DNA of 64,000 nucleotides, from the NCBI RefSeq assembly GCF_000013705.1, contig NC_007947.1, positions 248,001-312,000 on the forward strand, in the 5' to 3' direction. This document shows, piece by piece, positions 56,539 through 59,114 of the stretch. The stretch's first letter is position 1; every line of letters begins with the position of its first letter. Under the pieces are notes generated by a model. The model saw only the letters and a program-made list of their open reading frames with translations. It was not told where the DNA came from and did not search any database. A program made the translations under genes and the position numbers. The stretch comes from Methylobacillus flagellatus KT (GTDB lineage: Bacteria; Pseudomonadota; Gammaproteobacteria; Burkholderiales; Methylophilaceae).

Positions 56539-56569
56539 ATTATCATACTATACTGTTTAGTATGATAAT
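56539..56569. promoter_or_regulatory. Perfect 12-bp palindrome, likely operator
   Basis: ATTATCATACTA (56539-56550), 7-bp spacer, TAGTATGATAAT (56558-56569). It lies 22 bases before the ATG of the small exported protein. Size and symmetry fit a TetR-type operator, and a TetR regulator is encoded 1.3 kb downstream. The link is inference. Confidence 0.6.
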
Positions 56570-56591
56570 TGATACCGTTTGGGAGAGAGAT

Positions 56592-56974
56592 ATGCACAAT
56601 TTGATGAGAATAATAAAATCCGTACTAATAATTGGCTCTTTAGTTTCTTCAGCAGCATATGTTGAGGTTGGGACTAAAGTTGCAGTCATGGCCTTTTCAT
56701 TAAATGACATGACTAATCTGCCAAATGCCCCTGAAGAGTTGAAGCGCATCAATCTACTCTCCCCCAATTCCATGAAAGCCTCAAAAGCAAAAGTATCAAC
56801 GTGGTGCCTGAAGGCACAAGAGTTAAATCGGAGATCGAGAAGTACTCTTCTACCCGCTTGATCATCGTGGATGTCAAAAACAAATCTGTGGTGATGTCGA
56901 AGTTTGCTCAATTGAGTTCTTGGGCAGACGAGAAGACGACAATCCGTACCGCTGAAAAGCTTGTGCTCAGGTAA
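56592..56974 (+). pseudogene. Small exported protein, frameshifted
   Basis: The reading frame opens at an ATG behind GGGAGAGAG with a signal-like start (MHNLMRIIKSVLIIGSLVSS). Near 56761-56765 a run of five C breaks it; adding one C would join it to a second open frame (SINVVPEGTRVKSEIEKYSS, ending at 56974) and give a 127-residue protein. Without that it ends at 56861 after 89 residues with an unrelated tail. The family is not recognised. It may be a recent pseudogene, a phase-variable gene or a sequence error. Confidence 0.6.
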
Positions 56975-57096
56975 TTAAAGAACGCGAGGATACTCTTCAT
57001 GCTGCAGCAGAACAGTAAATAATGAAGATTTAGGGGTATGGAAATGCTCAAGGAAATATCAAGTACACCACTGTTAAATTTGCAAGGATCCGAATA

Positions 57097-57885
57097 ATGG
57101 AATTGCTGAATAGTTCCTGGTTAATTCGTATGATCGAGAAGGCTGGCCCAAGGCCAATCGACAAGCTTCTTTCTGTGTATACATTGTTGGAAACTTGGTT
57201 GCATGCGCCTGGGATTCGGCAAGGCGTCAATGAAGAATATTCCAATAACTCGCTAATGTTTCAGAGCTGTCCTGCGCTAACTTCCTATCTTGTCTCTTTA
57301 GCCATAGCGGCCAAGCTCAAGAATCCTGCAACTGTCGTTACTCAAATGATGATTCTCCTGCAGGGGGCGATAGCAGAGGAATTACGCAATCCCGAGATGG
57401 GCGCTCTGCTTGCTGCGCAACAGGCCGCAAAGGTAGTAGTAAAAGACGCAACGCCATCAATCATGGTGAGAGCGGATGAAGCCATTCGGGCAAGTGGATA
57501 TGCTGCTACATTCTTGGCGTGCACTATATTGGCGGTGCATTTTTTGCCTTCAAAGAATTCAGCTCCAGTACACAATGCACAGCAGGATGTCGGATATCAG
57601 CAAGTTACTTTGCTATCAAGTATCGATCCTGAGTTACTTCTAAAAGCGTTTGCACTTAGAAAAAGCATGGAGGCCGGGACTTGTCCAACCCCCAATTTCT
57701 TTAGTATGCCCAAGGAACAGATATCGGTATATATGGATATTGTTCACGCTAGGTTATCCAATAACCCGGATATTGATAATAAGAGATTGTCGACTTTCTT
57801 GGCGTGGTATGACCAACAGCGTGCGTGGGAATGCTACCCAAAATCTCAAATCAAGCAACGATTCATATCTAGGATAGGTGTTTAA
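57097..57885 (+). CDS. Membrane protein with a TetR-like ligand-binding domain but no DNA-binding domain
   Basis: 262 residues, unknown function. Residues about 18-116 follow the helix pattern of TetR C-terminal domains: RPIDKLLSVYTLLETWLHAP, later TVVTQMMILLQGAIAEELRN and LLAAQQAAKVVV. No helix-turn-helix precedes it, and none is found in the 120 bp upstream. One membrane helix follows (about 133-151, SGYAATFLACTILAVHFLP), then a 110-residue C-terminal domain with no recognised family. AAGGA lies eight bases before the ATG. A complete TetR regulator starts one base after its stop, so the two are almost certainly cotranscribed. The TetR-like reading is by eye and should be treated as a hypothesis. 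Confidence 0.6.
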   Translation: MELLNSSWLIRMIEKAGPRPIDKLLSVYTLLETWLHAPGIRQGVNEEYSNNSLMFQSCPALTSYLVSLAIAAKLKNPATVVTQMMILLQGAIAEELRNPEMGALLAAQQAAKVVVKDATPSIMVRADEAIRASGYAATFLACTILAVHFLPSKNSAPVHNAQQDVGYQQVTLLSSIDPELLLKAFALRKSMEAGTCPTPNFFSMPKEQISVYMDIVHARLSNNPDIDNKRLSTFLAWYDQQRAWECYPKSQIKQRFISRIGV

Positions 57886-57886
57886 C

Positions 57887-58441
57887 ATGTCATCAAGAAT
57901 ACGCGATTATATCCTTGAGGCTGCTGGCGATCTTTTTTCTCGCCAAGGTTTCAATTCGACTAGTGTTGATAATATTGCCGCACAGGCACAAGTGGCCAAA
58001 GTCACGCTATATAAATATTTCAAATCCAAGGAATTGCTCATCATTGAATATTTGCGCGAGCAGAATTCAAAGCTATGGAAAAAACTGGCGGAATCTCCTC
58101 AACAAGAAAATGCACGAGCTGAGCTTGAGTCAATGGTAATCAGCCTCTTGGAAGTCATTAGTGACAAGGACTTCAAAGGGTTTGCTTCCATCAATGCAGG
58201 AGTCGAGTTTCCCCAAGTCGACAACCCTGTCAATCAAATCTCGAAAGAGTTCTCCAAGCAACTTCGAGAACAAATGACTGAGTTAGCTACTCGAGCAGGA
58301 ATCAAGCATGCGGAAGCTTTGGCCTTGCAGCTGGCCTTGGTGATTGAAGGCGCTTCAATTACCGAAAGAAACCAACAAGGCAGTCAATCAATTTTGCATG
58401 CGCAGACCTTGGTCAAGACATTGATTAATTCGGCTACTTAA
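57887..58441 (+). CDS. TetR family transcriptional regulator
   Basis: One-component repressor of 184 residues. The helix-turn-helix is at residues 24-46 (NSTSVDNIAAQAQVAKVTLYKYF) and the C-terminal domain (about 75-180) contains the ALALQLALVIEGASITER helix at the ligand-pocket position. The ATG at 57887 is preferred to an in-frame GTG at 57878 that overlaps the upstream gene. It follows the HTH-less TetR-like membrane protein by one base. Its target may be the palindrome at 56539. Confidence 0.9.
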   Translation: MSSRIRDYILEAAGDLFSRQGFNSTSVDNIAAQAQVAKVTLYKYFKSKELLIIEYLREQNSKLWKKLAESPQQENARAELESMVISLLEVISDKDFKGFASINAGVEFPQVDNPVNQISKEFSKQLREQMTELATRAGIKHAEALALQLALVIEGASITERNQQGSQSILHAQTLVKTLINSAT

Positions 58442-58634: not shown

Positions 58635-59114
58635 ATGAGAAACATATTAATAGCGCTGTGTCTTTCCCTGACAGCGTTGAATTCACATGCTGCTGATCAG
58701 ATTGAGAGAATGGCAGCTGATAAGATGCAATCGTATAAAGAGTCTAAAATCAACTGGAAAGATGACCCTATTCTCCCGAAAGGTGCGAAAAGCGCACTTA
58801 TCTTAGGTGATCCATCAAAACCTGGAGTTTTCATTGCGTGGCTTAAATTCCCGGCCAACTACCCAATCCCGGCTCATACACATCCATTTACTGAGGTCAT
58901 TACCGTGCTTAAGGGTAAACTGGGAAATGGGATGGGCGAGGTTTTGGATAAGAAAAAAGGAGAAACTTTGAACGTAGGTGAGAGTTTTGTCCTGCCAGCG
59001 GGCCATGCACATTATGTATGGACAGGAAATGAGGAAACTATTATCGAGTTGATTGCTACAGGGCCATGGGATATTACCTATTCCAATCCAAAAGATGACC
59101 CTAGAACAAAATAA
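58635..59114 (+). CDS. Periplasmic cupin-domain protein
   Basis: Exported single-domain cupin, 159 residues with a signal peptide cut after about residue 19 (ALNSHAADQ). The two cupin motifs are YPIPAHTHPFTEVITVLKG, with metal-binding His-His-Glu, and GESFVLPAGHAHYVW with the last histidine. It resembles ChrR-like anti-sigma cupins and DUF4437-type proteins, but its substrate is unknown. GGAGG precedes the ATG; a bidirectional terminator follows. Confidence 0.85.
   Translation: MRNILIALCLSLTALNSHAADQIERMAADKMQSYKESKINWKDDPILPKGAKSALILGDPSKPGVFIAWLKFPANYPIPAHTHPFTEVITVLKGKLGNGMGEVLDKKKGETLNVGESFVLPAGHAHYVWTGNEETIIELIATGPWDITYSNPKDDPRTK

Follow-up and report, generated by a model that had tools for sequence, protein, structure and literature searches.

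Bacterial membrane proteins known to control soluble repressors include EIICB-Glc, which sequesters Mlc at the membrane, and MecR/BlaR, the partners of MecI/BlaI. GlnK is a soluble PII protein, unrelated to TetR and not a membrane-bound TetR paralog. AmtR, a regulator of the TetR family, interacts with this signalling protein (PMC2723105, in the part cited). Three types of bacterial transmembrane signalling are named in the cited part of PMC5936718, i.e. ToxR-like, two-component and ECF/anti-sigma systems. Methanol and alcohol dehydrogenase systems of the periplasm are controlled in other bacteria by MxbDM, MxcQE, MxaB, MxaY and PedS2/PedR2, all of them histidine kinases or response regulators; the cited parts of these reports name no TetR-type system (PMC5018670, PMC11845868). 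Methanol dehydrogenase requires the accessory genes mxaRSACKL(D) for its function, as earlier work had established, and Methylophilaceae have several clusters of this kind (PMC4109929, in the part cited).

The window, i.e. the whole 64-kb stretch of DNA that was analysed (positions 248001-312000 of a 2,971,517-bp single-contig genome), contains a gene pair that shares single features with several of these systems. The first protein, M, has the C-terminal fold of TetR/AcrR one-component regulators and differs from them by the lack of a helix-turn-helix (HTH), by its predicted membrane location and by an exported domain, the regulator being split over two genes. M resembles ToxR and CadC in the sequence of cytoplasmic domain, single membrane helix and periplasmic sensor domain, whereas their winged HTH lies in the membrane protein and the TetR-type HTH lies here in a separate soluble partner, T (PMC5936718, in part). 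As a whole, the layout is unlike any of the three types named there. The proposed interaction of a TetR-family regulator with a signalling protein recalls AmtR and GlnK (PMC2723105, in part), and the proposed control of a periplasmic methanol dehydrogenase system recalls the MxbDM-type regulators (PMC5018670, PMC11845868, in part). In contrast to EIICB-Glc and MecR/BlaR, no transporter, protease or kinase domain was found in M, and the cytoplasmic part of M is paralogous to the dimerisation domain of the putative repressor itself. A search of the open-access literature found no description of a membrane-bound TetR-like partner, which is weak evidence of absence, since subscription papers lay outside its scope.

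The window locus and its two proteins

The locus comprises the following features.

56539..56569, no strand: perfect 31-bp inverted repeat (12-bp arms, 7-bp spacer) holding the putative operator ATACTATACTGTTTAGTAT at 56545-56563 (sequence scan)
56589..57015, + strand: DUF3280 (DUF2380) gene remnant, split over three reading frames (tblastn with a relative's intact protein)
57097..57885, + strand: M, membrane protein of 262 aa (open reading frame, relatives, model)
57115..57459, + strand: M residues 7-121, C-terminal domain of the TetR type (ligand binding/dimerisation), predicted to be cytoplasmic (profile match, fold comparison)
57460..57540, + strand: M residues 122-148, predicted membrane helix (hydropathy, relatives, model)
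57628..57873, + strand: M residues 178-259, predicted exported four-helix domain with invariant Cys196 (57682-57684) and Cys246 (57832-57834) (alignment, model)
57887..58441, + strand: T, full TetR regulator of 184 aa; HTH at residues 9-54, C-domain at residues 65-184 (Pfam, profile)
58635..59114, + strand: cupin gene (present in 7/40 compared loci; N-terminus signal-peptide-like by eye)

A preliminary description of this DNA had proposed that M consists of a TetR ligand-binding fold, one membrane helix and a novel domain, and that it is followed, one base on, by a standard TetR regulator. This domain make-up and the true TetR partner held up in our analysis; the operators and the link to methanol-dehydrogenase accessory genes had been missed. 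M residues 7-121 give a profile match to the C-domain of the TetR neighbours (E 5e-18), and the fold of residues 18-116, on which the earlier proposal had been made to depend, agrees with TetR C-terminal domains. A91 and A107 of M, both well conserved, correspond in the alignment to A156 (at least 90% conserved) and A172 (invariant) of T, on the last two helices. These two helices form the dimer bundle of TetR proteins. An HTH is missing from M: there is no Pfam match, the TetR domain begins behind the HTH and the upstream open frame is too short. Nor did Pfam or NCBIfam detect any other DNA-binding domain, the cytoplasmic part being filled by the TetR C-domain. A protease or kinase domain was likewise found neither in M by Pfam and NCBIfam nor among the 17 Pfam families, mostly at chance level, of 37 members.

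When hydropathy was searched behind residue 90, the most hydrophobic 19-mer lay directly behind the TetR domain in 42/42 M proteins, each with one predicted membrane helix. Lysine and arginine are commoner on the N-side of this helix in 40/42 (137 versus 39 overall). Exactly two cysteines follow the helix in all 42, and C196 and C246 are invariant in both alignments (37/37 and 39/39 rows). From the charge bias, the helix position and the two cysteines, the TetR domain is expected in the cytoplasm and the tail beyond the membrane, a location that makes a disulfide between C196 and C246 likely. By prediction, M thus has the ToxR-like topology of one membrane helix, cytoplasmic N-terminus and periplasmic C-terminal domain. 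The hydropathy peak of the window M is modest (1.58, second-best region 1.42), so that the assignment of its helix draws on the model and the related proteins as well. Four helices are modelled for the tail (pLDDT 77). We found no solved structure related to this exported domain and no family for it, in keeping with the novelty proposed earlier, and a search of the 368 other genomes of the class sample did not find it. M is most likely of TetR descent, a former T-like copy without HTH and with a membrane helix and an exported domain.

T carries the HTH at its N-terminus (PF00440, E 6.8e-16, residues 9-54), followed by a TetR C-domain. Its profile matches TetR chains of the PDB over most of the profile's length, e.g. 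3g7r_A at positions 4-161 of 187 (E 4.6e-28), and its closest solved relatives by sequence are 3g7r and 3jsj. Judged by these matches, T is an ordinary member of the TetR/AcrR family.

Concerning the neighbourhood, the putative operator stands in front of the split DUF3280 gene. This gene precedes M in Methylobacillus relatives and forms a single 181-aa frame in locus L029, compared to three frames in the window; the relative's intact protein matches PF11684 (E 1.5e-11). Upstream of position 7132 of L029, a 9-base unit (GGTATTGTT) is repeated some ten times between palindrome and DUF3280 gene; the same place of the window lacks this run. Named relatives of M were found, by identity, in Methylobacillus arboreus (90%), M. 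rhizosphaerae (65%) and M. glycogenes (61%). The window genome holds three M genes with T: the window pair, a pair at 375506 and a core pair near 485000. The M at 375506 is 46% identical to the window M, and its neighbours were read by eye as groES-groEL.

Distribution and co-inheritance of the pair in Methylophilaceae

Family-wide searches matched the M profile in 129/187 genomes at E 1e-8 or better, TetR-only matches included, and the T profile in 127/187 at 1e-40. Among those listed, the genomes without M match belong to one genus and measure 0.8-1.4 Mb; 38 further genomes without match come in addition to those listed. At 134/141 M places among the matches listed, T follows downstream on the same strand; the gap between the matched stretches is below 1 kb in 132/134, and 1.2 and 4.2 kb in the other two. 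Five of the remaining seven M places (G022, G559, G560, G564, G568) have T on another contig; the rest are in G548 and G530. Conversely, 16 T places lack M among the matches listed. An adjacent M outside that list, too divergent for or beyond the matches listed, is present at seven (G006, G011, G031, G039, G040, G076, G551), and four are the partners named above on another contig, plus that of G022. In this last genome the M (G022:C1:232422), which is not located at the end of its contig, and a T of its type (G022:C14:21315) are carried by separate contigs and may be a naturally separated pair.

The pair types include the core locus, the window type and, as a third type, one that has diverged strongly (L075-L078). 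The core locus has the order TlpA-like redoxin, HemJ, M, T, then PfkB kinase and others, with the TlpA-like and HemJ (UPF0093) genes directly before M, as in L042:5316-6236. In some loci an SRPBCC gene with signal-peptide-like start or a gene for a 131-aa membrane protein is inserted between M and T on the opposite strand.

The trees of 42 M proteins and their 42 T proteins correlate with r 0.867. Swapping T partners within a genome, which was possible in the eight genomes holding more than one of the 42 pairs, gave a mean r of 0.352 and at best 0.825, so that 0/1000 swaps reached the observed value. This indicates that M-T pairs duplicated and diverged as units; tight linkage of the two genes can mirror trees in this way even without contact between the proteins. 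Occurrence of the pair in many genomes, which the preliminary description had named as a check, shows that it is not a local oddity; it is a family-wide, repeatedly duplicated regulator pair of the methanol-consuming Methylophilaceae.

Palindromes upstream of the pairs and candidate targets

Window-type operons have ATACTAAACAGTTTAGTAT-like palindromes upstream, core T genes the palindrome TATAC-N6-GTATA. The latter is perfect within 150 bp upstream of T in 13/17 core loci, a count made on the same loci in which the palindrome was discovered. Further loci not used for discovery (20 fetched, one dropped as too short) carry the perfect site in 12/19, compared to 0.05% of shuffles. Of the seven without it, one scores 9/10; the other six come from genomes of 1.5-1.7 Mb, and three of these carry TTAC-N6-GTAA instead. 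The first 40 loci contain 457 genes other than the pair, DUF3280, MoxR, SRPBCC and cupin genes. None of these has a perfect TATAC-N6-GTATA within 150 bp upstream and none a third-type site; the core-locus control, in which SRPBCC, MoxR and cupin genes were still included, yielded 2/210. The 457-gene control, together with the 19 further loci, lessens the circularity of the first count. The long palindrome of window-type loci scores at least 14 of 19 in 11/19 loci versus 5/230 upstream regions of other genes; 7/19 score below 13 of 19.

Within the window, TATAC-N6-GTATA is matched at 9/10 at 56549, the sole place with at least 9/10 in the 64 kb. The window-type palindrome, allowing three mismatches, occurs in the window genome only at the window operator (0 mismatches) and before the 375506 pair (1 mismatch); no operator of the window pair was found in its genome beyond its own promoter and that of this paralogous pair. 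Since a reversed-pattern control gave as many matches (2 forward + 1 reverse versus 2 + 2), it is the placement and not the count of these palindromes that speaks.

Perfect TATAC-N6-GTATA sites occur at five places of the window genome (control 3). One is the core T promoter; another belongs to a MoxR/DUF58/VWA cluster and a further one to the gene for the 131-aa membrane protein. The other two, 570671 and 1336006, have no recognised link to the pairs. Site 570671 (L122:2172) stands just before a Gcw_chp gene (PF09694) and 1336006 (L121:2507) before an open reading frame that is TPR-like by eye; both may be chance.

The cluster has the gene order AAA ATPase, DUF58, unknown, VWA, weak TPR, VWA, and from gene order and sizes we take it to be mxaRSACKL; no family model assigns these names to its genes (none from NCBIfam for the L041 copies). 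A second mxaR-type cluster of the window genome, at 2032509, has only a partial site, TATACAGATCTGTTTA. In a sample of mxaR-type promoters consisting of the best 30 MoxR matches of a longer list, a type of about 64% identity lying outside the sample, a perfect site stands within 250 bp upstream in 12/30 (11 within about 100 bp; shuffles 0.03%). The M gene lies divergently beside MoxR in nine other loci of these best 30, giving 21/30 by site or M adjacency. Eight of the nine divergent M-MoxR intergenic regions have AACAGACCTGTCTG in common; L129 is without. In L040, L041, L047 and L053, MoxR follows T directly or a few open reading frames on and has ATACTTACTAGTTAGTAT or a one-base variant in front; the MoxR loci L054 and L055 have no ATACTTACTAGTTAGTAT-type site, and L048 is not judgeable because of a wrong start.

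The gene for the 131-aa membrane protein, which has no Pfam match, is present in 26/100 family genomes (L120:2878-3270, i.e. genome positions 2329877-2330269, and L157-L182). One of the 26 loci was too short; among the other 25, a perfect site stands upstream in 9 (shuffles 0), and 12 of the other 16 carry a ACAGAYCTGTCT-like site, read by eye from the sequences. M and T are inside the examined stretch in 6/25. Two of seven SRPBCC genes have a perfect site within 200 bp, in common with T. In L059 and L061 the SRPBCC-domain gene, presumably MxaD-like, and T have a common divergent promoter region with several operator matches. In none of the seven loci with the cupin gene does a perfect TATAC-N6-GTATA stand in the 200 bp before it. 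Sites at MoxR and 131-aa genes across loci suggest that the pair types use related palindromes at related targets, and M-T pairs appear to control methanol-dehydrogenase accessory genes.

A proposed split transmembrane regulator and its alternatives

We consider it rather probable that M and T form a split transmembrane regulator in which unequal M-T dimers couple a periplasmic cue to operator release. A T dimer would bind the palindromic operators in the promoter of its own operon, and the T of other pairs would bind also at the promoters of mxaRSACKL-type clusters and of the 131-aa gene. Repression is the most likely outcome, a guess from the overlap of the palindrome with promoter-like sequence; in the window a weak promoter-like sequence (9 of 12 matched) overlaps the inverted repeat, and the promoter scan of this stretch found 7, little more than the 4.7 of shuffles. 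M would pair with T through the kept dimerisation helices. Such a dimer would have a single HTH, located at the membrane, and would be unable to hold on to a palindrome. A periplasmic cue, perhaps redox, may be read by the exported domain, which a disulfide between its invariant cysteines would close; the cue would shift the M-T balance and so set how much T is bound. The gene for a TlpA-like thiol oxidoreductase before M in the core operon fits a redox cue and proves nothing. The unequal dimer is the most economical reading.

Alternatively, M dimers might bind intact T dimers via another surface and keep T at the membrane, whether DNA-bound or not, until a cue frees it. Pairing and mirrored trees fit such tethering equally well, and there is precedent for control of a TetR protein by another protein, namely of AmtR by GlnK (PMC2723105, in part). 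Tethering gives no special reason why M should have the dimerisation-helix residues in common with T, though M homodimers need them too, and we regard it as unlikely. The preliminary description had considered ligand sequestration as well as dimerisation with T that keeps it at the membrane; either form of contact would explain strict pairing and mirrored trees better than ligand sequestration alone. That the TetR domain of M, which retains the ligand-binding fold, merely binds the small molecule of T and alters its free level at the membrane, without protein contact, seems improbable: gaps in the profile alignment show that M has a shorter stretch where T carries its conserved EFP motif, so that the pocket has probably changed, a single membrane protein per operon would be a poor sink, and the exported domain with its two invariant cysteines is left unexplained. 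There is equally little to recommend M as a non-regulatory membrane accessory protein of periplasmic methanol oxidation that recruited a TetR fold and is regulated by T; the likely targets are methanol-dehydrogenase accessory genes and the core-locus M closely follows the TlpA-like and HemJ genes (about 3 bp before the first possible M start in L042), but M stays with T across several neighbourhoods while other neighbours change, and a TetR dimerisation domain next to a related TetR is hard to attribute to chance.

Returning to the unequal dimer, we propose more tentatively that the pair may represent a further kind of bacterial transmembrane signalling, in addition to one-component, two-component and ECF sigma systems. 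Duplication would have divided a one-component regulator into two subunits, one soluble and DNA-binding, the other a membrane-bound dimerisation subunit without HTH that carries a periplasmic redox or ligand sensor; the split regulator would have been repeatedly duplicated in Methylophilaceae and would tune methanol-dehydrogenase accessory clusters. To our knowledge, it is not a textbook mechanism that a soluble repressor of a very large regulator family answers to the periplasm. If true, an HTH-less membrane paralog would be a simple evolutionary route by which a TetR repressor comes to do so. For the mxaRSACKL accessory genes of Methylophilaceae, candidate regulators, operators and targets are hereby named.
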